DNA of 64,000 bases from Roseomonas populi (GTDB lineage: Bacteria; Pseudomonadota; Alphaproteobacteria; Acetobacterales; Acetobacteraceae), in contig NZ_JANJOU010000009.1 of assembly GCF_024594815.1 (NCBI RefSeq), forward strand, positions 124,001-188,000. The letters run 5' to 3'. Below are positions 173-58,586 of the stretch, piece after piece. Below the pieces are notes generated by a model that saw nothing but the letters and a program-made list of their open reading frames with translations, made no database searches and had not been told where the DNA came from. Both the position numbers and the translations under genes were made by a program. Numbering within the stretch: the first letter of the stretch is position 1; the number at the start of each line of letters is the position of its first letter.

Positions 173-1210
173 TCAGAGGCGCCGCTCCTCGATCGGCGGG
201 AGGAAAGCGTCCGTGTAGATATCCGCCACCTTCAGCCTGTTCGGCATGCCATAGGCGGTCTCCACAGCCTCGATCGCCTTCTGGAAGCGCGCCATGTCGG
301 GGTTGGAAAGCCCATTCCGCATGACGTGGTCCGAGATGACCTGCTGCTCCATGCTGATCGCCTGCCGCTCGGTCTCGATCGCCACATCCGTCAGCGGCTC
401 GACCTTCTTCAGCGCGGCGATGCTCTCCGCACGGTTCCTGTTGGCTTGGATCAGGCCGCGGAACAGGGCGCGCTGCGCGTTGCGCACCACCTCAGGGTTC
501 TTCTCGGCGAAGGCCCTGGTCGTGATGTAGGCGGTACCCAGCAGGTCCAGCCCGTGGTCGCGGTAGTACAGGATGTTCTGCTGCGGGAAGTCCAGCCCCA
601 GCGCCTTCAAGGACATCCCGACGGAGGTAATGGCCCCCGTCACGCCATCCGTCCGCTTCTGCACCAGCATCGGCTCGCGCAGCTCCGGGCTCACGCTCAT
701 CCAGTTCACCTTGCCGGGGTCCACGCCCGCCATCCGGGCAAAGGCGGGAAAGAGCTGGCGGCCCGCATCGGATTCCGGCGCGGCGAGCGTGCGGCCCTCC
801 AGGTCCTTCGGCGTCTTCACCCCGCCATCCGCGCGCGTCACGGCGCAGAGCAGCGAGCGGTCGCCCCAGATGCCGGTGACGACCAGGCCCGAATTCGGGT
901 TCTCCGCCATGAACTTGATGACGGGGTTGATGTCTGCCTGCCCCATGTCATAGGCACCGCCGGCGATGTCCACCGGCACGCGGCCGGAGCCGAAGCCGCG
1001 ATCGACCGAGGCGTCCAGCCCCACCTCGCGGAAATACCCCTTCTCCAGCGCCATGCTGGCATAGGCGTTGGGCCCCTGCTTCGCCCAGTCCAGCGCGAAG
1101 CGCAGCTTCGGCATCGCCTGGGCCCGCGCCAGGTGCGGCCGGGCCAGCCCGCCCGCGGAGAGCGCGGCGGCCGCGGCCAGCAGGTGGCGGCGGGACGGAT
1201 TCTGTTGCAT
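173..1210 (-). CDS. NMT1/THI5-like ABC transporter substrate-binding protein
   Basis: A periplasmic binding protein of about 345 residues in the NMT1/THI5/SsuA group, which feeds ABC importers for nitrate, sulfonates or pyrimidine-like compounds. The start at 1210 is preceded by AGGAG and gives a twin-arginine-like signal (SRRHLLAAAAALSAGG, then ALARAQA-type cleavage). The mature part begins with the family pattern LRFALDWAKQGPNA and has the EKGYFREVGLD segment of this fold. No permease or ATPase gene is adjacent, so the transporter partners must lie outside the window. It is divergent from the amidase and ring-opening amidohydrolase genes with a gap of about 60 bp, which suggests the ligand may be related to their substrate. 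That link is inference. An in-frame extension to 1249 exists but lacks a signal-peptide start. Confidence 0.85.
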   Translation of the reverse strand: MQQNPSRRHLLAAAAALSAGGLARPHLARAQAMPKLRFALDWAKQGPNAYASMALEKGYFREVGLDASVDRGFGSGRVPVDIAGGAYDMGQADINPVIKFMAENPNSGLVVTGIWGDRSLLCAVTRADGGVKTPKDLEGRTLAAPESDAGRQLFPAFARMAGVDPGKVNWMSVSPELREPMLVQKRTDGVTGAITSVGMSLKALGLDFPQQNILYYRDHGLDLLGTAYITTRAFAEKNPEVVRNAQRALFRGLIQANRNRAESIAALKKVEPLTDVAIETERQAISMEQQVISDHVMRNGLSNPDMARFQKAIEAVETAYGMPNRLKVADIYTDAFLPPIEERRL

Positions 1211-1270
1211 GGAGGCTCCTCTTCCCGCCCGAGGGCACCCCGGCGGCACGCCTGCCTGGCAGCAAGAACG

Positions 1271-2737
1271 GTGCCGGAAGGATCAGGGCCTCGCCCGGGC
1301 GCACCGGGCCGCCACAAGCGCCGGAGCACCCCTCCCATCGATCCCTGCCTGATCACGGCCGAAGGCCTCGTCCGCTTCTACCGCCGCCACATCCTCTCGC
1401 CGCTGGAGGTGACGCAGGCCGTGCTGGCGCGGGCGGAGCGGCTGAACCCCGCCCTCAACGCGGTTGTCACCCTCGATTCCGCAGGCGCGCTGGAGGCGGC
1501 GCGGGCCAGCGAGGCGCGCTGGGCGGCGGGTTGCCCGCTGGGCCCGCTGGACGGCGTGCCGCTGACGGTGAAGGACAACATCCCCGTCGCTGGGCTGCGC
1601 TGTAGCTGGGGCAGCGCCACGCACCGCGACTTCATCCCCGCGCGGGACGAGCTGCCCGTGGCGCGGCTGCGCGCGGCCGGCGCCGTGATCCTCGGCAAAA
1701 CCAATGTCCCGGAATTCACGCTGGAGGGCTACACGAGCAACGCCCTGTTCGGCCCCACCCACAATCCCTGGAACACGGATCTCACCCCCGGCGGCTCCAG
1801 CGGCGGGGCCGTGGCGGCCGTCGCCGCAGGACTCGGCCCGCTCGCCATCGGCACGGATGGGGGTGGCTCCATCCGCCGCCCCGCTTCCCACACCGGACTT
1901 GTCGGGATGAAGCCCACCCCCGGCCGCGTGCCCCGCGCGGACGGCCTGCCACCGATCCTGCTGGACCTAGAGGTGATCGGCCCGATCGCCCGAACCCTGG
2001 GCGACGCCGCCATCCTCCTCTCCGTCATGGCCGCGCCGGACCCGGTGCGGGATCCCGCCTCGCGCGGCCTGCCGCCCTTCCTGCCGCCGGACGAGATGCC
2101 GCGGCTCCGCATCCGCTACGTGCCGTACTTCCCCGGCCATCCCGTGGACCCGGGCATCGCCGCCTCGGTCGCCACCGCCGCGCGCGGGTTGGCCGCGCTG
2201 GGCCATGAGGTGGAGGAAGGCCCTCCGCCTTTCGACGTGGAGACAGTCCTGCCCCTTTTCGGGGCCATCGGCGGGGCGGGGCTGGCCTGGCTGCTCTCCA
2301 CCCTGCCGGGGAATCCCGATCCCCGTTCCCCGAACCTCCTCGCCATGGCGCAGGCCGGGCGGGCCATGCCGGCCGGGGCACTCATGGCGGCGCTGGACGG
2401 GATGGCCGCCTTCAGGCGCCAGATCGCAGGGTTCCTGACGACCGAGTGCGACGCCATCCTCACGCCCTCCGCCGCCGCCCTGCCCTGGTCGGCCGGGGAG
2501 TCCCACCCGCCGGTGATCGATGGCCAGCCCGTGGGGCCGCGCGGGCATGCGGTCTTCACCAACTTCGCCAATCTCGGCGGCCTTCCCGCCCTCGCCCTGC
2601 CCTGCGATCCCGTGGGTGGCCTGCCCTGCGGTTTCCAGCTCGTCGGCCCGCCCGGGTCGGATGCCGTGCTGATGGCTGTGGGGGCGGAGTACGAGGCGGC
2701 GCATCCCTGGGCGGATCGCTGGCCACCCCTGGCCTAG
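1271..2737 (+). CDS. Amidase signature family hydrolase
   Basis: A hydrolase of the amidase signature family (Ser-cisSer-Lys triad) that cleaves a C-N amide bond. From a GTG start at 1271 (488 residues), the visible triad is Lys101 in LTVKDN, Ser176 in GGSSGG and nucleophile Ser200 in GGGSIRRPAS. Length is normal for the family. The frame stays open upstream to 149, but that part is the shadow of the minus-strand binding protein. No ATG exists near the family's usual N-terminus, so GTG 1271 is the best but uncertain start. The ring-opening amidohydrolase gene follows 48 bp downstream on the same strand. In s-triazine and oxidative pyrimidine pathways an amidase-family enzyme (AtzE or AtzF type, or ureidomalonase) acts directly after ring opening, so a role on the ring-opened product is plausible. 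Other amidase substrates cannot be excluded. Confidence 0.85.
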   Translation: MPEGSGPRPGAPGRHKRRSTPPIDPCLITAEGLVRFYRRHILSPLEVTQAVLARAERLNPALNAVVTLDSAGALEAARASEARWAAGCPLGPLDGVPLTVKDNIPVAGLRCSWGSATHRDFIPARDELPVARLRAAGAVILGKTNVPEFTLEGYTSNALFGPTHNPWNTDLTPGGSSGGAVAAVAAGLGPLAIGTDGGGSIRRPASHTGLVGMKPTPGRVPRADGLPPILLDLEVIGPIARTLGDAAILLSVMAAPDPVRDPASRGLPPFLPPDEMPRLRIRYVPYFPGHPVDPGIAASVATAARGLAALGHEVEEGPPPFDVETVLPLFGAIGGAGLAWLLSTLPGNPDPRSPNLLAMAQAGRAMPAGALMAALDGMAAFRRQIAGFLTTECDAILTPSAAALPWSAGESHPPVIDGQPVGPRGHAVFTNFANLGGLPALALPCDPVGGLPCGFQLVGPPGSDAVLMAVGAEYEAAHPWADRWPPLA

Positions 2738-2785
2738 TCTGGCCCGCCTCTTGCCCGGCACCGGGGGCCATCACCGGAGCCCCCC

Positions 2786-3826
2786 GTGCCGCGCCTCGTC
2801 ATCCACCGCCTTCCCATGGCGCATCCCGGCGACGTCTCAGCCCTCGCCACCCTGATCGCGGGGGGCACCGTCCCCGCTGCCTCCATCCGCGCCGTCATCG
2901 GCAAGACCGAGGGCAATGGGGGGCTGAACGACTTCACCCGCGGCTACTTTACCCAGTCCCTGATGCAGCTGCTGGCGCGGGAAACCGGTGAGGCGGCCGA
3001 GGACCTGGCCGCCCGCATCCCCTGCGTGCTCTCCGGCGGCACGGAGGGCGTCCTCTCCCCTCACTACGTCGTCTTCGCGGTGGAGGAGGCGGCGGGCGAG
3101 GCCGGCCTGGCGATCGGCACCGCCTTCGGCCCACCGGTCGCCCCCGGCGACGTGGGCAACGACGCCCAGATCGCCCGCGTGGCCGATGCCGTGCGCGCCG
3201 CCATGGCCGATGCGGGGATCGCCGATGCCTCCGACATCGCCCTGGTGCAGGTGAAATCCCCGGCCGGCGGCCCCGGCCTGCTGCTGCGCTCCGTCGCGGG
3301 CGGCGCTATGGGCGCAGCCCTCGCGCTGGGCGACGTGCCGGCGGAAGAAGCACGCGGCGCCGCGCTTCTGGAACGCCTGGACCTCTTCTCCCCCCGCGTC
3401 AGCGCCTCCGCCGGGGTGGAGGTGGAGCGGGACGAGGTGGTGGTGCTCGGCAAGGCCCCCGGCTGGGCGCCCGGCCTCCGCATGGCCGTGCGCGCCATGG
3501 CGGACGCGCTGGACCTGCGCGCCGTGCAGTCCGCCTTCCGCGCCGCGGGGCTGGAGACCGACCCGGACGTGCCGGAGGCGCAGCGCCCGCGCATCCGCGC
3601 CGTGCTCGCCAAGGGCGAGCCGGACCGCACCCTGCGCATCCGCGGCCAGCGCCACACCATGCTCGGCGACACGGACATCGACGCGCAGCGCCACCTGCGC
3701 GGGGCGGTCGGCGCCGTCATCGCCGCCGTGGCGGGGGATGGGCGGATCTTCGTCTCCGGCGGCGCGGCCCACCAGGGCCCGCCCGGCGGAGGCTTGGTAG
3801 CGGTGATCGCGGCGGAGGTGGCGTGA
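2786..3826 (+). CDS. Ring-opening amidohydrolase (cyanuric acid hydrolase / barbiturase family)
   Basis: A 346-residue member of the AtzD/TrzD/barbiturase family, which hydrolytically opens cyanuric acid or barbiturate rings. The family's three-fold internal repeat can be followed: Lys40 (GKTEGNGG) with Ser83 (SGGTEG), Lys157 (VKSPAGG) with Ser208 (SASAG), and Lys276 (LAKGE) with Ser324 (SGGAAHQGPPGGG), giving three Ser-Lys dyads. All catalytic positions appear intact and the length is normal. Whether the substrate is cyanurate, barbiturate or another N-heterocycle cannot be told from the motifs. Its stop codon overlaps the start of the FAD monooxygenase, so the two are probably co-translated. 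The protein family is rare and scattered among bacteria, which makes this locus a candidate for a specialised catabolic function. Confidence 0.9.
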   Translation: MPRLVIHRLPMAHPGDVSALATLIAGGTVPAASIRAVIGKTEGNGGLNDFTRGYFTQSLMQLLARETGEAAEDLAARIPCVLSGGTEGVLSPHYVVFAVEEAAGEAGLAIGTAFGPPVAPGDVGNDAQIARVADAVRAAMADAGIADASDIALVQVKSPAGGPGLLLRSVAGGAMGAALALGDVPAEEARGAALLERLDLFSPRVSASAGVEVERDEVVVLGKAPGWAPGLRMAVRAMADALDLRAVQSAFRAAGLETDPDVPEAQRPRIRAVLAKGEPDRTLRIRGQRHTMLGDTDIDAQRHLRGAVGAVIAAVAGDGRIFVSGGAAHQGPPGGGLVAVIAAEVA

Positions 3827-4986
3827 TGCGGATCGGGATCATCGGGAGCGGCGTCGCCGGCTCCCTCCTCGCCGAAGGGCTCGTCGGCGCCCCCGGCCTG
3901 GACGTCTCCGTTTTCGAGCGCGCGGCGGCGGGCGAGCACGCGGAGGCTGGAACCGGCCTCAACCTCGGACCCAACGCGCTGAAGGCGCTGCGCCTGCACA
4001 ACCCTGCCCGCCACGCGGCGCTGCGCGCGGCCTCCCTGCCCTGGCGCCGCTGGATCGTGGAGCTGTGCGACGGCACGCCCCTGCTCGACCTCGACATGCT
4101 GGAGGTGGCGGAGGAACCCGGCGTCCGCATCCGCTGGTCCGAGCTGTACCGCGTGCTGCGCGCGCCCATCGCCCCCATCGCCCACCAGGGCCACGCCCTG
4201 GAGGCGCTGGAGGAAGACGCCGCCGGCCGCCTCGTCCCTGTGTTTCGCACATCTGGCGGCACCCTGGCCCGGCACGGCGGCTTCGACCTGCTGGTTGGCG
4301 GAGACGGCCGCTACTCCCGCCTGCGCGCCCTGACGGCAGGGGAGCCGCCATCGCGTCAGCTCGGCGTCTGCATCTGGCGCATGCTGGTGGAGGACGCCAC
4401 AAGCTGCCCCTTCGACGACTACGGCCAGTGGTTCCAGGGCCCAAACCGTCTCCTCGCCTTCCGGGTGCCGGGCGACGCTACCTACGTCGCCGGAGCCTTC
4501 CCGCTGGAGGGCGACATGGCCATCCCCGCCGAGGCGCGGACCGCCGCCTTCCAGCGCGCCCTCTTCACCCCCGCGAACGGCAGGCCCAGCCCCGCCGTCG
4601 CCTGGATGCTGGACCGGATCGAGACGGGGATCGGCGACATCCACTGGGCCCGCATGCAGGAAGCCCCGGTCCAGCGCCACGCGGCGGGCGGCCGGGCGCT
4701 GTTCCTGGGGGACGCCGCCCAGGCCATGGTCCCCACCCTCGGCCAGGGTGCGACCCAGGCGGTGGAGGACGGGGTGCTGGCCGCCGCCGTGCTGCGCGCG
4801 GGCGGTGGGGCGCAGGAAGTGGCCGCGCTGCGCGACCCGCGCCTGGACTATGTCCGCGGCCTCTCCCACGAGGCGAGCGACACCATCCTCGGCACCGATC
4901 CCGTTTCCGGCACGCGGAAGAAGGGGGAAGCGCCCTTCTTGGAAAAGCTGCGCCGGCTTTACCTGGATGTGCCGGCGGCAGTTTGA
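3826..4986 (+). CDS. Group A FAD-dependent aromatic/heterocycle monooxygenase
   Basis: A single-component flavoprotein hydroxylase of the p-hydroxybenzoate or salicylate hydroxylase type (386 residues). It carries the N-terminal dinucleotide fold GIIGSGVAGS, the DG motif in LLVGGDGRYSRLR near residue 160 and the GD motif in FLGDAAQAMVP near residue 300. The ATG at 3826 shares one base with the stop of the ring-opening hydrolase (TGATG); a GTG at 3823 is an alternative. Family members of this type hydroxylate rings such as urate, hydroxynicotinate or salicylate. Coupling to a ring-opening amidohydrolase suggests it prepares a heterocycle for hydrolytic cleavage. The exact substrate is unknown. 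Confidence 0.85.
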   Translation: MRIGIIGSGVAGSLLAEGLVGAPGLDVSVFERAAAGEHAEAGTGLNLGPNALKALRLHNPARHAALRAASLPWRRWIVELCDGTPLLDLDMLEVAEEPGVRIRWSELYRVLRAPIAPIAHQGHALEALEEDAAGRLVPVFRTSGGTLARHGGFDLLVGGDGRYSRLRALTAGEPPSRQLGVCIWRMLVEDATSCPFDDYGQWFQGPNRLLAFRVPGDATYVAGAFPLEGDMAIPAEARTAAFQRALFTPANGRPSPAVAWMLDRIETGIGDIHWARMQEAPVQRHAAGGRALFLGDAAQAMVPTLGQGATQAVEDGVLAAAVLRAGGGAQEVAALRDPRLDYVRGLSHEASDTILGTDPVSGTRKKGEAPFLEKLRRLYLDVPAAV

Positions 4987-4999
4987 GCGCTGGTGGCCC

Positions 5000-5020
5000 C
5001 CAAGGGGCTCTGCCCCTTGG
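5000..5020. repeat. Perfect inverted repeat CCAAGGGG-N5-CCCCTTGG
   Basis: An 8-bp perfect stem with a 5-nt loop starts 14 bp after the FAD monooxygenase stop. I recall very similar units as dispersed palindromes in Acetobacteraceae genomes, but no second copy was seen in this window. It could serve as a transcription stop for the plus-strand operon, although no T tract follows. Confidence 0.5.
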
Positions 5021-5037
5021 ATCCCCGCCAGGAGGCT

Positions 5038-5059
5038 GGTTGGACTTATAGGTCCAACC
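5038..5059. repeat. Perfect inverted repeat GGTTGGAC-N6-GTCCAACC
   Basis: An 8-bp perfect stem around a 6-nt AT-rich loop, second of four hairpins in this gene-free interval. Function is unknown; an RNA processing site or repeat unit is possible. Confidence 0.45.
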
Positions 5060-5138
5060 CTGGACCTGCATCGGGCTGCCGAAGGGACTGACTTGCGGCG
5101 TGGCGCTGATGCCAGGGGCCTCATCCTGCCCTTGCAGT

Positions 5139-5163
5139 CGCCTCGGCTCCACGAGCCGAGGCG
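5139..5163. repeat. Perfect 11-bp inverted repeat with CAC loop
   Basis: The arms at 5139-5149 and 5153-5163 are perfectly complementary with a 3-nt loop. Third of the four hairpins between the convergent FAD monooxygenase and glycosyltransferase genes. Confidence 0.5.
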
Positions 5164-5215
5164 CACCGCCAGCGAAGCCCAGACCAGCCGATAGAAAAAG
5201 ATGAGTGTGAGGGGT

Positions 5216-5251
5216 CCGGGGAGAGGAAGAATTCCTTCTTCCTCTCCCCGG
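5216..5251 (-). terminator. Perfect 16-bp hairpin, probable terminator between convergent genes
   Basis: The arms at 5216-5231 and 5236-5251 match perfectly over 16 bp around a TTCC loop. It sits about 20 bp past the stop of the minus-strand glycosyltransferase, where a terminator would be expected. On the minus strand a CTTTTTC tract follows about 15 nt later. It may also block plus-strand read-through from the monooxygenase operon. Confidence 0.6.
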
Positions 5252-5271
5252 GACAGACCGGCCTTGCAAGC

Positions 5272-7455
5272 TCAGAGCGGCTGCGCCGGAACCAGCAGGC
5301 GGTTCTCCAGATAGGCCACCCGGTCCCGCACCTCTCCGGCGCGCATCACCGCCACCGAGACAATGCCGATCCCCACGCGAGTGCCGTCTTCCAGCTCGCC
5401 GCCGGGGGAGGCTTCCAGCACGAGCCGCAGTTCAGGCTCGCCCGGGCCGATCTCCAGCGCAACCTCGCCCGCGGCTTCCGCGCGGCGCTCCACTATCGTG
5501 GCGCTGGCGCCTTTCCGGCCGAAGGTCAGGCGCACGGCCCCTTTCACTCCAGGCGGCGGGCGGAGCGCGACGGTCACGCGGGCCGGGCCCTCGAAGGGCG
5601 CAATCAAGGCCAGCGCGGCCCGCCCGGGCCGGGTCCAGGCGCCCCACTCCTCCGGCGGGAGCCAGCCGGCGCCCTCCGGCAACTGGGCCGCGCGCGCCAG
5701 GGCGGAACTTGGCCCGGGCGAGCCGCCATGGCCGAGACGGACAATGCCGGAGAGCGGCAGGGGCGGCGGTGGGTCCTGCGGCTCCCGCGCCAGGCGGCGG
5801 GCGCTGGCCAGCATCTCCTCCGCCACCTCCGCCCAGGGGCGCAGGCCGCCATGGCGGGGGATGCGGGCGGCGGCGGCGGCCAGCCTCGCCGGATCGGCGA
5901 TCAGCCCCTCCACCGTCGCGGCCAGGTCCTCCGCGCTGCCGGGCGTGAAGAACACGGCGCCGTTGCGCCCGCTCTCCATCAGGGAGGGAATTTCCGACAC
6001 CACGGGCACCCGCCGGTGCAGCAAGGATTCGGAGACAGGCAGCCCCCACCCCTCATGCCGGCTGGGGTAGATGGTGAAGAGGCAGCCCCGGTAGAGCCGG
6101 GCCAGCGCCGCGTCGTCCAGATCGTGGAGGAGCGTCACTCGCTCCGCCAATGCGGGATCGTCGGCCAGCGCCTCAAGGATGCGCCCGTCGCCAGGCGCCC
6201 TCCGGCCCGCGAAGACCAGGCGCGGCGTGCCCGCCGCCCCGCGCCGGTCCAGCAGGATCCGCCAGGTGGTGAGGGCCAGCAGGTGGTTCTTCCGGGGCTC
6301 CAGGCTGGAGACGAGGAGGATGAAGGGCCCCTCCGGCAGCGCCGGGTGGGCGGCCACACGCTGGACGGAAGATCGTGGCATCTCCCGCAGGACCGGCAGC
6401 CGGGGCAGGCGGCGCCCGGGAGGCCCGGCGGCCGGGGCTTCCTCCGGCTCCGGCACCGCGGGATCGCGCCCGTCAGGCGTGACGACGAGGACCGGCGGCG
6501 CCGCCCAGTCCGGCAGGTGGCGCGCCATCAGGCGGCGGTACTCCGCGGCGGTGGCGTGGGAAACGGCGAGAACGCCGTCCGCCAGCACCGGAAGGGCGGA
6601 GAACCAGCGCCCGAACTCCGCCCGCAGCGCCGGCCCGGCGAGGTCCGGCAGGACCAGCGGCCCGCAATCATGCAGCAGCGGCACGTGGCGGGCCCCGGCG
6701 GCGCGGGCGGCGCGAAGGGCGGTGGCGTAGCGCGGCAGCCACCAGGCGCTGCCGGTCATCAGGATCAGGGTGCCCGGCCCGGGCCGCAGCGGCGGGCCCG
6801 CGCGTCGCCACCCCTCCAGCACCCCCAGCGTGTCGAGCCAGACCGGATCCTTTGCGTCCGCGCCGCTGCGAGAAAGGTGGTAGAGGCGCCGGAACAGGGG
6901 CGTCGGCAGCACGCGCCAGCCATCCTCCTCCGGGTGCATGGCGCAGAGCGACACCTGGTCCGCCAGCGCGGCCGCGATCTCGGCCTGCACGCGCTGAATG
7001 CCGCTGGGGGCCCGGCGGTGGAAGAACCAGGAGACGAGGTCAGAGAGGTCCAGCACCGGCCCTTCCCCGCGGGAGGCCGGTACCTGGGACAGGGCGGCGC
7101 GCCACTCCGCCTGGGCCGCCGCGTCCTGGGGGTCGAGTAGGAGGGCGCGGCCATAGGCCTCCGCCGCCGCCTCGCGCCGGCCCAGCAGCTTCAGTGCGTG
7201 GCCGATCTGCAGGTGGATGTCCACGTCGTCCGGCTGCATCGCCTCCGCGCGGCGGTAGAGGTCCAGGGCGCCGGCGGGGTCGCCATCCTCCTTCAGGCAG
7301 TGGCCGCGCTGGACGAGGATGCCGCGATCCTCCGGCCGCAGGCGGAGATAGGCGCCATAGGCCTCCGCGGCCTCGCCCCAGCGCCCGGCATCCCGCGCGT
7401 CGTCGGCCCGGGCCAGCAGCGCGCCCGCATTCCCATCCCCTCGGCTCTCCGGCAA
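5272..7455 (-). CDS. TPR-containing GT4-like glycosyltransferase
   Basis: A cytoplasmic fusion protein of about 727 residues. The first ~110 residues form three TPR-like helical repeats (ARDAGRWGEAAEAYGAYLRL and two similar units). The rest is a GT-B glycosyltransferase with the donor-site signature FTIYPSRHEGWGLPVSESL and, before it, the SLEPRKNH motif. Enzymes of this type add sugars to polysaccharide or O-antigen chains. The C-terminal ~130 residues look like a beta-rich accessory region. The start chosen is a TTG at 7455, because a GGAGGGG ribosome site lies 8 nt upstream; the frame stays open to 7554 but that extension has no ribosome site. It is divergent from another glycosyltransferase, suggesting a shared surface-polysaccharide role. 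The acceptor is unknown. Confidence 0.85.
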   Translation of the reverse strand: MPESRGDGNAGALLARADDARDAGRWGEAAEAYGAYLRLRPEDRGILVQRGHCLKEDGDPAGALDLYRRAEAMQPDDVDIHLQIGHALKLLGRREAAAEAYGRALLLDPQDAAAQAEWRAALSQVPASRGEGPVLDLSDLVSWFFHRRAPSGIQRVQAEIAAALADQVSLCAMHPEEDGWRVLPTPLFRRLYHLSRSGADAKDPVWLDTLGVLEGWRRAGPPLRPGPGTLILMTGSAWWLPRYATALRAARAAGARHVPLLHDCGPLVLPDLAGPALRAEFGRWFSALPVLADGVLAVSHATAAEYRRLMARHLPDWAAPPVLVVTPDGRDPAVPEPEEAPAAGPPGRRLPRLPVLREMPRSSVQRVAAHPALPEGPFILLVSSLEPRKNHLLALTTWRILLDRRGAAGTPRLVFAGRRAPGDGRILEALADDPALAERVTLLHDLDDAALARLYRGCLFTIYPSRHEGWGLPVSESLLHRRVPVVSEIPSLMESGRNGAVFFTPGSAEDLAATVEGLIADPARLAAAAARIPRHGGLRPWAEVAEEMLASARRLAREPQDPPPPLPLSGIVRLGHGGSPGPSSALARAAQLPEGAGWLPPEEWGAWTRPGRAALALIAPFEGPARVTVALRPPPGVKGAVRLTFGRKGASATIVERRAEAAGEVALEIGPGEPELRLVLEASPGGELEDGTRVGIGIVSVAVMRAGEVRDRVAYLENRLLVPAQPL

Positions 7456-11036: not shown

Positions 11037-12029
11037 ATGAGGGATTCGACCCTGCGCGGCCCCACGCCCGGCTTCGGCCGCCGCGCCCTGTTCGGCACCG
11101 CCCTGCTGGCGGCCGTTCCAGCCGCCGCGCAGGACTATCCCACCCGCCCCATCCGCATCCTGGTCGGCTTCACCGCCGGCGGCAGCGCGGACATCATGGC
11201 GCGCGACATCGGCCAGCAGCTCTCCGCCGCCTGGGGGCAGCCGGTGGTGGTGGAGAACCGCAGCGGCGCCAACGGCACCATCGCCACCCAGGCCATGATC
11301 GCCTCGCCGCCCGATGGCTACACGCTGCTGATGACGGTCTCCTCCCACGTCACGAACCCGCGTCTCTATCCCGGCGTGGACTACGATCCCGTGCGGGATG
11401 TCTCGCCCGTCACCCTCGTCGCCTCCTCGCCGCTGGTGATCCTGGCGCATCCGCGCTTCGCCGCGGGCGACATGAAGGCGGCGATCGGGGCGGCGCGCGC
11501 GAAGCCCGGCACTGTCACCTATTCCTCGCCCGGCACCGGATCGGTCCAGCACCTGTCCATGGAGCTGATGAACGGGCTGGCGGGGATCGGGATGGTCCAT
11601 GTCCCCTATCGCGGCGGCGCCAACGCGCTGACGGACCTGCTGAGCGGGCAGGTGCAGCTCAGCATCCTCTCCATCGTCCAGGCGCTGCCGCTGATCCGGC
11701 AGGGGCAGGTCAAGGCGCTGGCCGTCACCACCCCTGCCCGCGCCGCCTCGCTGCCGGAGGTGCCGACCCTCGAGGAAGCCGGGGTGCAGGGCTATGATTC
11801 CTCCCTCTGGTTCGCCCTCCTGGCGCCGCCGCGCACCCCCGCGCCGATCGTCCACCGGCTGAACGCGGAGGTGACGCGCATGATCCGCACGCCGGAGATG
11901 CAGGCCCGGCTCACCGCCCAGGGCGCCGACCCGATCGGCGGCACGGAGGAGGAGTTGGCGTCCTTCCTGCGGGCCGAGGACGCCAAATGGGCGGAGGTGA
12001 TCCGCCGGGCCAATGTTCGCCCGGAGTAG
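11037..12029 (+). CDS. Bug-family tripartite tricarboxylate transporter binding protein
   Basis: A periplasmic solute-binding protein of the Bug/TctC family (330 residues). It has an export signal (RRALFGTALLAAVPAAAQ) followed by the family start YPTRPIRILVGFTAGGSADIMAR, then VVVENRSGANGTIA and VHVPYRGGANAL. Bug proteins bind carboxylates or amides and deliver them to TctAB permeases. No tctA or tctB is adjacent, which is usual for these expanded orphan families. A GGAGAGGA ribosome site precedes the ATG. It ends 6 bp from the stop of the convergent enolase-superfamily enzyme, which could act on a carried hydroxy acid; this is inference. Confidence 0.9.
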   Translation: MRDSTLRGPTPGFGRRALFGTALLAAVPAAAQDYPTRPIRILVGFTAGGSADIMARDIGQQLSAAWGQPVVVENRSGANGTIATQAMIASPPDGYTLLMTVSSHVTNPRLYPGVDYDPVRDVSPVTLVASSPLVILAHPRFAAGDMKAAIGAARAKPGTVTYSSPGTGSVQHLSMELMNGLAGIGMVHVPYRGGANALTDLLSGQVQLSILSIVQALPLIRQGQVKALAVTTPARAASLPEVPTLEEAGVQGYDSSLWFALLAPPRTPAPIVHRLNAEVTRMIRTPEMQARLTAQGADPIGGTEEELASFLRAEDAKWAEVIRRANVRPE

Positions 12030-34486: not shown

Positions 34487-35464
34487 ATGATCGCGCGCCG
34501 CACCCTTCTCGGGGCCGGGCTGGCCCTGCCCGCCATCGCCCCCGCCCTTTCCCAGTCGGCCGAATGGCCGAGCCGGCCCATCCGCTTCATCGTCCCCTTC
34601 CCCCCCGCCGGCTCCACGGACGTGATGACGCGGATCTACGGGGAGCAGCTCCAGGCCCGGCTGGGCCAGAGCATCGTCGTCGAGAACCGGCCGGGCGCGG
34701 GCGGCAACATCGGGATGGACGCGGTCGCGAAGGCGCCGGCCGATGGCTACACCTTCGGCATGGCCACGATCGGGCAGTTCTCGATCAACCAGTTCCTCTA
34801 TTCCCGCATGCCATGGGACATCGACCGGGACTTCATCGCGGTGGCCCTGACCTATGAACTGCCGAACGTGGTGGTCGTCAGCAGCGCGCACTGCCCGGCG
34901 AGGACGCTGCAGGAGTTCATCGCCTGGGCGCGGGACAGGCCGCAGGGCATCAGCTACGGCAGCCCGGGGGTGGGCACCACGGCGCATCTCTCCGGCGGCC
35001 TCTTCGCCAGCCGCCTGAAACTGAACGCGGAGCACGTGCCCTTTCGCGGCGCGGCGCAGATCACCCCTGCCATGCTCTCGGGCGACCTGACCTGCGCGAT
35101 CGACAACCTGGCCTCCTACATCCCCATCATCCAGGAGGGCCGGATGCGCGCCTTCGCCGTCACGGGCGCGGAGCGCTGGCCGAGCCTGCCGGACCTGCCG
35201 ACCATGGCGGAGGCGGGAATGCCGGACTTCGTCATCACCTCCTGGGCCGCCCTCGTTGCCCCTGCCGGCACGCCGAAGGTGGCGGTGGACCGGATGAACG
35301 CCGCCCTGAAGGCGGTGGCGGAGGACCCGGCGGTGCAGCGGCGCTCGCTCCAGGCCGGCACGAAGCTGCTCTGGTCCACGCCGGAGGGCGCGGTGGAGCG
35401 CGGCAAGCGCGAGCGGCCGATGTGGCAGGAGGCCGTCCGGATCACCGGCGCCCGAGCGGACTGA
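34487..35464 (+). CDS. Bug-family tricarboxylate transporter binding protein
   Basis: A 325-residue periplasmic binding protein with a twin-arginine-like signal (ARRTLLGAGLALPAIAPALS), then the family motifs RPIRFIVPFPPAGSTDVM, VVENRPGAGGNIG and EHVPFRGAAQITP. No TctAB partner genes are adjacent. A GAGGGA site precedes the ATG at 34487; the frame upstream to 34424 is not supported. It stands alone, followed by a strong hairpin. Confidence 0.9.
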   Translation: MIARRTLLGAGLALPAIAPALSQSAEWPSRPIRFIVPFPPAGSTDVMTRIYGEQLQARLGQSIVVENRPGAGGNIGMDAVAKAPADGYTFGMATIGQFSINQFLYSRMPWDIDRDFIAVALTYELPNVVVVSSAHCPARTLQEFIAWARDRPQGISYGSPGVGTTAHLSGGLFASRLKLNAEHVPFRGAAQITPAMLSGDLTCAIDNLASYIPIIQEGRMRAFAVTGAERWPSLPDLPTMAEAGMPDFVITSWAALVAPAGTPKVAVDRMNAALKAVAEDPAVQRRSLQAGTKLLWSTPEGAVERGKRERPMWQEAVRITGARAD

Positions 35465-38247: not shown

Positions 38248-39225
38248 ATGACCCATGCCCTGACCCGGCGGGCGGCCCTCAGCCTGCTTGCCGCCCCCGC
38301 GCTGCTGCGCGTGGCCAATGCCCAGGCTCCCTGGGCGCTGGACCATGCGGTGCGGATCATCGTGCCCTTCCCGCCGGGCGGCGGGCTGGACCTGGTGGGC
38401 CGCGTGCTGGCCGAGGTGGTCTCGCCCGCCCTGGGGCAGCCGGTCGTGGTGGACAACCGCGCGGGCGCGGCCGGCGCGCTGGGGATCGAGCAGGTGTTCC
38501 GCTCGGCGCCGGACGGCCACACGCTCGGCATCACCAGCGCCGGCAACATCACCATCGGCCCGCTGCTGCGCCGCAGCCCGCCCTATCCGCCGCTGGCGAT
38601 GACGCATGTCTCCCGCCTGACGACGAGCCCGCTGATGCTGGTGGCCCGCAAGGACCTGCCCGTGGCGGACCTCGACGCCTTTCTCGCCTGGGCGCGCGCA
38701 AAACCGCAGGAGGTGCGCTTCGGCTCCGGCGGCGTCGGCTCCTCCCCGCACATGGCGCTGGAGCTGCTGAACATCCGCCTGGGCGCGACGATGCTGCACG
38801 TGCCCTATCGCGGCACCACGCCGCTGCTGACGGACCTTGCCGCGGGGCAGGTGGATGTGGGGTTCAGCGACGCCTCCGGCTGGCCGCTGGTGCAGCAGGG
38901 CGCGCTCCGCCTCCTCGCCGTCTCCACGGCGGAGCCCTGGGCGCGCAGCGCGGGGACGCCCACGCTGGATAGCCGGGTGGGCGACTTCAACGTCAGCAAC
39001 TGGTACGGGCTCGTCGCCCCGCCGGGCCTGCCCGCGCCGGTCCTGGCCCGGTGGGAGGCCGAGACGGCGAAGGCGCTGGCGACACAGCGCGTGAGGGACG
39101 CCTATGAGGGCTCGGGCTTCACGCCGTCGCCGCTGCCCGAGGCGGAGTTCAAGCCCTTCCTGGAGCGCGAGATCGCGCTGTGGAAGAGCGTGATCGAGAC
39201 GGCGAAGATCGAGCCCGAGGGCTGA
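38248..39225 (+). CDS. Bug-family binding protein next to the flavin monooxygenase
   Basis: A 325-residue periplasmic binding protein with a signal (LTRRAALSLLAAPALLRVANAQ) and family motifs VRIIVPFPPGGGLDLVGR, VVVDNRAGAAGALG and LHVPYRGTTPLL. It follows the LLM monooxygenase by 14 bp with a GGAG ribosome site, so they are likely one operon. The ligand may be the oxygenase substrate. It ends near the convergent HutD gene. Confidence 0.9.
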   Translation: MTHALTRRAALSLLAAPALLRVANAQAPWALDHAVRIIVPFPPGGGLDLVGRVLAEVVSPALGQPVVVDNRAGAAGALGIEQVFRSAPDGHTLGITSAGNITIGPLLRRSPPYPPLAMTHVSRLTTSPLMLVARKDLPVADLDAFLAWARAKPQEVRFGSGGVGSSPHMALELLNIRLGATMLHVPYRGTTPLLTDLAAGQVDVGFSDASGWPLVQQGALRLLAVSTAEPWARSAGTPTLDSRVGDFNVSNWYGLVAPPGLPAPVLARWEAETAKALATQRVRDAYEGSGFTPSPLPEAEFKPFLEREIALWKSVIETAKIEPEG

Positions 39226-57575: not shown

Positions 57576-58586
57576 ATGGACCTCGCCAGCCCTCCACCGC
57601 GCCTCGCCCGTCGCAGGCTTCTGCTCGCCTCCGGGGCAGCCGCCATGCTCGCCACCCCGGCCATCGCCCAGACCGCCAATGGCCGCCAGCCCGTCACGAT
57701 CATCGTTCCCTTCACCCCCGGCGCGCCGCCCGACATCGTGGCGCGCGTGCTGGCGGAAGGGCTGCAGAAGCGGCTCGGCCAGCCCGTGGTGGTGGACAAC
57801 CGGCCGGGCGCCAGCGGCAATATCGGCGCCGGCCTCGTCGCCCGCGCGGCGCCGGACGGGCACACGCTGATGGTCCACACCACCACGCTGGTGATGAATG
57901 CCGGCCTCTACGCCAGCCTGCCCTACGACCCGCTGGCCTCCTTCGCCCCAATCGCGATGCTGACGGAGGTGGACTACGCGCTGGTGCTTCACCCGTCCGG
58001 CGGCGCCGACCTCGCGGAATTCATCACCCGTGCCCGCGCCCGGCCGGAGGCGCTGAACTACGCATCCCCCGGCATCGGCACGCCGCACCACCTGCTGATG
58101 GAGCTGTTCCAGCGCCAGGCCGGGCTGCGGCTGCTGCACGTGCCCTATCGCGGCACCGCCGGCGCGGTGACAGGCGTGACGGCGGGCGAGGTGCAGGCGA
58201 TGTTCATGCCCGTAAGCGGCGCGGCGGAGCTGACGCGCGGCGGCCCGTTGCTGGCCGCGGCCGTCACCGCCCCCGCGCGCCTCGCCCTGCTGCCCGAGGC
58301 CCTCACCCTGGCCGAGAGCGGGGTGGAGGGCGTGACGGTGCGGGACTGGTTCGGCCTTCTCGCCCCCTCGCGCGTGTCCCCGGCTGCGCTGGAGGGGCTG
58401 AACGAGGCGGTGAACGCCGTGCTGGCCGCCCCGGAGACGGTGCAGGCGCTGGAGTCGCAGGGCTACAACGTGGCCGGCGGCACGGCCGAGGCCTTTCGGC
58501 GGCGCATGGCTACCGACATGGAGCGCTGGGGCAGCCTGGTGCGAGAGGCCGGGATCACGGCGGACGGCCCCGCCCCGGGCCGCTGA
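57576..58586 (+). CDS. Bug-family binding protein divergent from the M20 hydrolase
   Basis: A 336-residue periplasmic binding protein with a twin-arginine-like signal (LARRRLLLASGAAAMLATPAIAQ), then VTIIVPFTPGAPPDIVAR, VVVDNRPGASGNIG and LHVPYRGTAGAV. A GGAG site precedes the ATG at 57576. It is divergent from the M20-RraA pair across about 160 bp, so it may bind their substrate. No TctAB genes adjacent. Confidence 0.9.
   Translation: MDLASPPPRLARRRLLLASGAAAMLATPAIAQTANGRQPVTIIVPFTPGAPPDIVARVLAEGLQKRLGQPVVVDNRPGASGNIGAGLVARAAPDGHTLMVHTTTLVMNAGLYASLPYDPLASFAPIAMLTEVDYALVLHPSGGADLAEFITRARARPEALNYASPGIGTPHHLLMELFQRQAGLRLLHVPYRGTAGAVTGVTAGEVQAMFMPVSGAAELTRGGPLLAAAVTAPARLALLPEALTLAESGVEGVTVRDWFGLLAPSRVSPAALEGLNEAVNAVLAAPETVQALESQGYNVAGGTAEAFRRRMATDMERWGSLVREAGITADGPAPGR

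Follow-up and report, generated by a model that had tools for sequence, protein, structure and literature searches.

A recurrent pairing of an AtzD/barbiturase-family hydrolase with an FAD monooxygenase in Roseomonas populi and its possible role in cyclic-ureide catabolism

The locus and its ring-opening hydrolase

The stretch of Roseomonas populi DNA considered here (64,000 nucleotides, called the window in its full length, and starting at position 124001 of contig 40 in its own genome of 5.87 Mb) carries near its left end genes for an amidase (AMI), a ring-opening hydrolase of the AtzD/barbiturase family (HYD) and an FAD-dependent monooxygenase (MOX), with a binding-protein gene facing away from them. 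All four had been named in the initial annotation, made from the sequence alone, and open reading frames with Pfam matches or motifs place them as follows.

173-1210, minus strand: NMT1/THI5-type periplasmic substrate-binding protein, divergent from the operon (PF09084, 93.9 bits, cut-off 20.5)
1271-2737, plus strand: AMI, amidase-signature hydrolase (PF01425, 322.6 bits, cut-off 27)
2786-3826, plus strand: HYD, AtzD/barbiturase-family (Toblerone-fold) ring-opening amidohydrolase of a clade here called Q-type (PF09663, 355.7 bits, cut-off 25)
3826-4986, plus strand: MOX, group A FAD monooxygenase, HpxO-like (motifs and a structural match to HpxO)

We read AMI, HYD and MOX as the central enzymes of a pathway for the aerobic breakdown of a cyclic ureide, by which is meant a six-membered ring with CO-NH-CO, such as a pyrimidine-dione or a barbiturate-type ring, and we give this reading a probability of about 0.45.

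HYD starts with GTG at 2786 and ends with TGA at 3824-3826, sharing one base with the MOX ATG at 3826-3828, exactly the overlap previously described, and 48 bases lie between AMI and HYD. The frame of AMI is open from 149, and translation likely starts at the GTG at 1271, with the next in-frame candidates at 1409 and 1421, the exact start not being fixed. Against the AtzE model TIGR02715 AMI scores 208.4 bits, below the cut-off of 425.75. HYD is the sole AtzD-family gene found in the genome (two matched pieces, one gene), and the named loci nearest to this one are those of Pararoseomonas and Roseomonas. A scan of positions 1100-5400 for consensus promoters and terminators returned no site, which says little at such high G+C.

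As to the fold of HYD, its model (mean pLDDT 85.8, dropping below 50 at residues 44-48, 284-299 and 327-330, two of these three stretches being active-site loops of domain 3) is of the Toblerone type, matching 14 entries of the family at Z 39.5-46.9, with the next match at 9.9. The Moorella cyanuric acid hydrolase 6buo is matched at Z 46.9 (root-mean-square deviation (rmsd) 1.8, 330 residues aligned), and barbiturase 5hxu at Z 44.2 (rmsd 2.1, 335 aligned). The three Ser-Lys dyads noticed in the initial annotation (K40/S83, K157/S208 and K276/S324) are identical in all 78 rows of an alignment from which L099, L101, L102 and L107 were omitted as too short or broken. The residues described as invariant in the family, in Azorhizobium numbering the Ser226-Lys156 dyad, Glu230 and Arg52 (PMC4051656), are present in HYD as S208, K157, E212 and R52, and R305, the counterpart of Arg324 in AtzD numbering, is also retained.

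The residues that distinguish the members of this family point elsewhere. The family is reported to have two established substrates, cyanuric acid and barbituric acid, along with published groups that have none (PMC3758960). The published motif of the cyanuric acid hydrolases (CAH), S-G-G-x-E-x-Q-G-P-x-G-G-G-P (PMC9118981), is broken in HYD, SGGAAHQGPPGGGL, with Ala standing for Glu and Leu for Pro. Gln301 occupies the position of CAH Thr321, and Val170 that of Arg194, the exact column being less sure in the latter case due to an adjacent deletion of ~20 residues. The barbiturase signature, Asn195, His321, Lys325, Val345 and Ser/Ala346 (PMC3758960), is likewise absent, HYD having Val170, Gln301, Arg305, Gly325 and Gly326 instead. 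Thus, while HYD shares with the cyanuric acid hydrolases (AtzD, TrzD and the Moorella and Azorhizobium enzymes) the Toblerone fold, the three dyads, the equivalents of Arg52 and Glu230 and a match to the NCBIfam model NF052395, it differs from them in the Gln, in the motif-final Leu, in its MOX partner and in belonging to a separate clade, and, in the window lineage only, in the Val and in the Ala of the loop. Barbiturase (5hwe), which acts along with ureidomalonase in the oxidative pyrimidine pathway, belongs to the same family and follows the same logic of oxidation, ring opening and amide hydrolysis; it has lost Arg194 and the loop Glu, as has the window lineage, while HYD differs from it in the four signature residues Asn195, His321, Lys325 and Val345 and in the monooxygenase partner.

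A tree of cyanuric acid hydrolases and barbiturases, a placement that the initial annotation had called for, puts HYD with neither: in a FastTree analysis of the 78 rows and 20 references, the 72 Q-type rows are split from all references and from the second copies with a support of 1.000. Gln at the Thr321 position is found in 72 of the 78 rows, the remaining six being second copies, and the motif-final Leu in 71, both being features of the whole MOX-linked clade. Val at the Arg194 position and Ala for the loop Glu are both restricted to the same six rows, which are those of the window and of five loci from Roseomonas or Pararoseomonas, and the three carbonyl-binding Arg are intact in 66 of the 72 Q-type rows. 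In five loci (L053, L080, L083, L090 and L093) a second HYD paralog is present inside the same clusters; it has Glu at the Thr321 position, SGGTEHQC replaces SGGAEHQG, and it groups with barbiturase (support 0.949). The residue-type labels "E-type" and "T-type" were coined in this analysis.

One solved member of the family, 5hy0, which we take to be the class V enzyme of Frankia, is titled "orotic acid hydrolase" in the PDB, and its alignment with HYD (2-173 to 36-209) runs through the domain-B stretch in which other solved members have an insertion. An orotate-like substrate may be imagined on this basis, HYD opening a 6-carboxy pyrimidine-dione to a ureido-C4 acid and AMI producing iminoaspartate, and aspartate dehydrogenase genes do occur among the HYD loci described below. 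We consider this highly improbable, as a PDB title is no assay, the alignment was taken overall rather than residue by residue, aspartate dehydrogenase is rare (5 of 75 loci), and the paper on the 5hy0 enzyme reportedly gave no substrate.

The monooxygenase and its structural relatives

MOX possesses the motifs of the group A flavoprotein monooxygenases, GxGxxG (G8, G10, G13), DG (D161, G162) and GD (G296, D297), each conserved in at least 69 of 70 rows, and it falls below the cut-off of the Pfam FAD_binding_3 model (19.3 versus 22 bits). Its predicted structure (mean pLDDT 92.0) is matched best by the FAD urate hydroxylase HpxO, at Z 37.6 for 3rp6 (rmsd 2.9, 362 aligned) and 37.4 for the uric acid complex 3rp7 (rmsd 3.0, 363 aligned), in a tie with the tropone monooxygenase TrlE (Z 37.4, rmsd 2.7, 357 aligned), followed by 6-hydroxynicotinate 3-monooxygenase (Z 35.9). 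R209 of MOX aligns with Arg204 of HpxO (Gln in 3rp8), and Y221 with the HpxO Tyr twelve residues past Arg204, each being conserved in 69 or more of the 70 rows; Arg204 and Tyr216 of HpxO are presumably the residues that hold urate. However, MOX is only 22-25% identical to HpxO sequences (25% to an annotated HpxO) and scores 51.9 bits against a cut-off of 500 for the NCBIfam HpxO equivalog NF033623. Due to this low identity, a transfer of the HpxO substrate to MOX is to be regarded as a lead only.

The distribution of MOX is narrow, with matches in 32 of 299 genomes of the family, 3 of 385 in a sample of the class and 1 of 398 in a sample of the phylum (the window's own genome included). Among plasmid records, 132 hold a match to the AtzD family and none matches MOX at E up to 1e-15.

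Linkage of the genes across loci and genomes

The claim that the hydrolase and the monooxygenase belong together stands up well in a wider sample. We compared 75 HYD loci from a collection of species genomes, found through peptide patterns of the window's HYD protein and so biased toward close relatives, in which neighbors were scored anywhere in the locus by tblastn with fixed bit-score thresholds; counts are lower bounds, many loci ending at contig ends, and weak matches below 60-90 bits were left out of several of the locus and genome comparisons. The loci span the alpha-, beta- and gammaproteobacteria and come from Roseomonas and relatives, Bradyrhizobium, Variovorax, Hydrogenophaga, Pseudacidovorax, Noviherbaspirillum, Devosia and Pseudomonas profundi. 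MOX is present in 69 of the 75 (62 of 65 among the loci of at least 15 kb), within 300 bases of HYD in 45 of the 69 and within 2 kb in 64. The coupling of a hydroxylase to this hydrolase, regarded in the initial annotation as not standard, is therefore a recurrent arrangement, even if literature searches by title and abstract gave no paper describing it. Three of the six loci lacking MOX are short contigs (L042, L044 and L101), the others being L057, L058 and L102. Moreover, when relatives' loci were taken with 1.5 kb flanks, MOX was found with all eight distinct Q-type genes, with none of 11 distinct readable CAH-type genes and with none of three further family members without signature.

Linkage is thus conserved while order varies, and the expectation that the order would be kept in relatives fails in part. 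The two genes are on the same strand in 54 of the 69 loci and divergent in 15. Across the 75 loci the arrangement is HYD-AMI-MOX in 20, HYD-MOX in 14, HYD-MOX-AMI in 14 and divergent MOX and HYD in 13, with nine others; the order of the window, AMI-HYD-MOX, occurs in five, all from Roseomonas or Pararoseomonas. Given this variation, gene order was rejected as a general proof of an operon. The amidase, also part of the claimed association, is found in 44 loci, and a nicotinamidase-like protein in four, all from Bradyrhizobium, in which no amidase was detected. Other frequent neighbors are a VOC protein (53 of 75), the parts of an importer (ATPase 50, NMT1 protein 47, permease 44) and a LysR regulator (30). 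The initial annotation had missed the VOC/importer unit, the molybdenum (Mo) hydroxylase and AtzH-like protein found in other loci, and the fact that this lineage has lost one substrate-binding Arg and one loop Glu.

Similar observations can be made at the level of whole genomes. In 100 related genomes, with MOX called at E up to 1e-60 and the AtzD family at E up to 1e-10, 11 have both MOX and some AtzD-family gene, none has MOX alone, six have an AtzD-family gene alone and 83 have neither (Fisher 8.7e-11, a nominal value given their relatedness). Of the 11 MOX genomes, eight have a Q-type gene and three (G018, G028 and G049) have only a CAH-type gene. In the window's genome, the genes for VOC (70% identical to a Bradyrhizobium protein), NMT1, ATPase and permease lie together at ~19,447-22,476 of contig 40, ~103 kb from the operon. 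Among 15 genomes of the genus, the VOC gene is present in all seven with HYD and MOX and in none of the other eight, and genes for NMT1 and the ATPase adjoin it in 7 of 7; in one relative (G013, locus L189) the VOC/ABC unit is accompanied by two homologs of the binding protein of 173-1210 (74 and 58% identity), encoded next to it. A full phyletic match for VOC outside the genus was rejected, as G025 and G028 possess VOC without a Q-type HYD, and G024 possesses HYD and MOX without VOC.

Some loci also contain genes that could precede or follow ring opening. The large subunit of a Mo hydroxylase of the xanthine dehydrogenase family is found in 25 of the 75 loci. Among solved structures, it is closest to quinoline 2-oxidoreductase, a CoxL and 6-hydroxypseudooxynicotine dehydrogenase, and among NCBIfam models it scores best with that of an aerobic carbon monoxide dehydrogenase group, just short of the cut-off (925.1 against 950). 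The best relatives in the window's genome are 45 and 41% identical and lie on another contig, with no match to HYD, MOX or VOC near them. In the same genome, two adjacent Mo hydroxylase large subunits, one match having an in-frame TGA, are found at G000:C39:196126-202365. The solved relatives of the Mo hydroxylase allow for a hydroxypyridine route, in which this enzyme would form a 2,6-dihydroxypyridine, MOX would hydroxylate it, HYD would open a cyclic-imide tautomer to an amide and AMI would hydrolyse the latter; the presence of 6-hydroxynicotinate 3-monooxygenase among the MOX matches and of the nicotinamidase-like gene in the four Bradyrhizobium loci is consistent with it. It appears very doubtful, as the three carbonyl-binding Arg suit a 2,4,6-trioxo ring better and ureide genes are found near the module in some loci.

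These ureide genes bring up the purines. In L062 and L077 the module is followed by genes for allantoinase (PuuE), uricase and OHCU decarboxylase/HIU hydrolase (UraD/UraH), and a PuuE-like match is found in 12 of the 75 loci. MOX might therefore be a urate- or methylurate-type hydroxylase in the role of HpxO, with HYD opening the six-membered ring either of the MOX product or of a subsequent cyclic ureide and with AMI and the AtzH-like protein finishing the breakdown, and the structural match to HpxO, tied with TrlE, the conserved Arg204, the Mo hydroxylase and the lack of any uricase match in the window's genome all fit such a purine branch. We nevertheless hold it to be unlikely: L062 and L077 already have uricase and HIU hydrolase, so MOX would be redundant there, uricase occurs in only these 2 of the 75 loci, and MOX is far under the HpxO cut-off. 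Along with the purine genes of L062 and L077, two plasmids in which AtzD-family genes lie within urate or xanthine dehydrogenase clusters leave room for a purine-derived substrate. One is a Pseudanabaena plasmid (L129:2998-4068), on which a CAH-type ring-opening amidohydrolase is encoded between puuE and uraH, after hpxO and uraD, in a urate cluster. The other is the Acidithiobacillus caldus megaplasmid (L128:1-7004), on which a member of published group IV is found with xanthine dehydrogenase subunits, ureidoglycolate lyase, an AtzE-family amidase and HpxZ, suggesting ureide breakdown.

Comparison with the atzDGEHF genes of pADP-1 reveals a partial likeness. An AtzD relative and an amidase-family enzyme are common to both, and an AtzH/HpxZ-like protein, 56-67% identical to the AtzH of pADP-1, is present in 22 of the 75 loci. 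However, the amidase is under the AtzE cut-off, MOX, VOC and an NMT1-type importer are present instead, and a 68-residue AtzG query had no match at E 1e-8 in any of the 75 loci, although so short a protein can be missed. In the window's genome, AtzH is encoded on another contig, and no AtzE or AtzG match was found in the 16 kb fetched around it. Farther along the window are four matches to TctC-type solute-binding proteins (11136-12020, 34496-35461, 38341-39219 and 57636-58565).

A possible route for cyclic ureides

Taken as a cyclic-ureide pathway, the module would work as follows. The substrate would be taken up by the NMT1-type ABC system encoded elsewhere in the genome, and MOX, acting before HYD, would hydroxylate the ring with FAD, NAD(P)H and O2, by analogy with HpxO probably at a carbon flanked by two carbonyl-bearing carbons. 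In HYD, Ser208 activated by Lys157 would then hydrolyse one imide C-N bond to produce an open ureido acid, the other two dyads along with Arg52 and Arg305 holding the ring carbonyls. AMI would release ammonia from the ureido or the amide end, and the nicotinamidase-like hydrolase may replace it in the four Bradyrhizobium loci. In the 25 loci that encode it, the Mo hydroxylase could introduce a ring carbonyl beforehand. In the concrete version that we prefer, a uracil-type ring would be converted to barbiturate by the Mo hydroxylase, where present, MOX would convert barbiturate to 5-hydroxybarbiturate, HYD would open the latter to ureidotartronate, and AMI would produce ammonia and the deaminated acid. 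AtzH has been proposed to decarboxylate 1,3-dicarboxyurea (PMC6219798). Ring oxidation as by HpxO, imide hydrolysis as in the AtzD family, deamination by an amidase and removal of a carboxylate as by AtzH may thus be fitted into a single cyclic-ureide pathway, and the route through oxygenation, ring opening and amide hydrolysis that had been proposed for an N-heterocycle holds in outline, while the identity of the ring does not follow from it, HYD deviating from both residue signatures and passing the cyanuric acid model.

A broader proposal is that the Q-type hydrolases represent, within the Toblerone family, a third functional class that opens the ring only after hydroxylation by the partner MOX, as in 5-hydroxybarbiturate, and that with the importer, VOC and sometimes the Mo hydroxylase they form an aerobic route, so far undescribed, for cyclic ureides derived from pyrimidines or purines in the alpha-, beta- and gammaproteobacteria. 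We put this forward tentatively, at less than even odds. Among the papers listed in searches of the open-licence literature, none described the module by title and abstract, though a subscription paper could still do so, and none, by the same fields, dealt with the genes of the uracil oxidative pathway. The pyrazinamide pathway was also considered and set aside, no paper on it being listed. Riboflavin breakdown was considered as a related system and rejected, as its ring is opened by LumH, a protein of 80 kDa, and the word "cyanuric" does not occur in the available part of the paper (PMC12746152).

A number of observations weigh against the cyclic-ureide reading. While the genes, their linkage, the residues and the predicted folds are observed, the substrate, the order of steps and the products are what we infer from them. 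None of the models and structures matched by the Mo hydroxylase points to ureides. As the window lineage has lost one of the carbonyl-binding Arg (V170), its enzyme may act on another substrate than the other Q-type enzymes do. Two loci, L057 and L058, encode a full-length HYD and an amidase and no MOX, and in L102, from a metagenome-assembled genome of Candidatus Protistobacter heckmanni, HYD and MOX are found as pieces only, suggestive of a decaying pathway or a poor assembly. HYD also passes the NCBIfam equivalog NF052395, named for cyanuric acid amidohydrolase (378.2 against a cut-off of 360). In addition, of 20 MOX loci from other genomes, hand-picked from 34 places outside the window's own, only six have a Q-type HYD within ~8 kb and 14 do not, so that a strict tie of MOX to HYD had to be rejected. 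Four of these 14 still have a VOC gene nearby, and no common partner emerged among the neighbors of the HYD-less MOX genes. In L136, L139 and L141, such MOX homologs are found near NtaA/DmoA-type FMN monooxygenases and family 5 solute-binding proteins. Some AtzD-family gene, often of the CAH type and elsewhere on the genome, is present in 28 of the 31 MOX-bearing genomes examined, suggesting that MOX may serve either type of hydrolase or have other roles, and the remaining three have no AtzD-family match.

The 14 MOX loci lacking a Q-type HYD, as well as the equivalog match, the shared fold and the AtzH-like protein of 22 loci, could also be accounted for by an ordinary cyanuric acid hydrolase pathway, with MOX as a passenger serving another reaction. 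This is quite unlikely in our view, considering the motif broken at both Glu and Pro, Gln for Thr321 and Val for Arg194, the position of HYD outside the branch of the reference cyanuric acid hydrolases, the lack of an AtzG match (a weak test with so short a query), the presence of MOX beside 8 of 8 Q-type genes and beside none of the CAH-type or other family members, and the lack of a MOX match at E up to 1e-15 in plasmid records, 132 of which hold an AtzD-family match. The cyclic-ureide pathway remains the interpretation that we favor.

In conclusion, the Q-type clade has a residue signature of its own and a recurrent oxygenase partner, and these hint at the chemistry to be tried next. For part of the family, the NCBIfam name "cyanuric acid amidohydrolase" may be a misnomer, and the module may add a bacterial route for the recovery of nitrogen from nucleobases.

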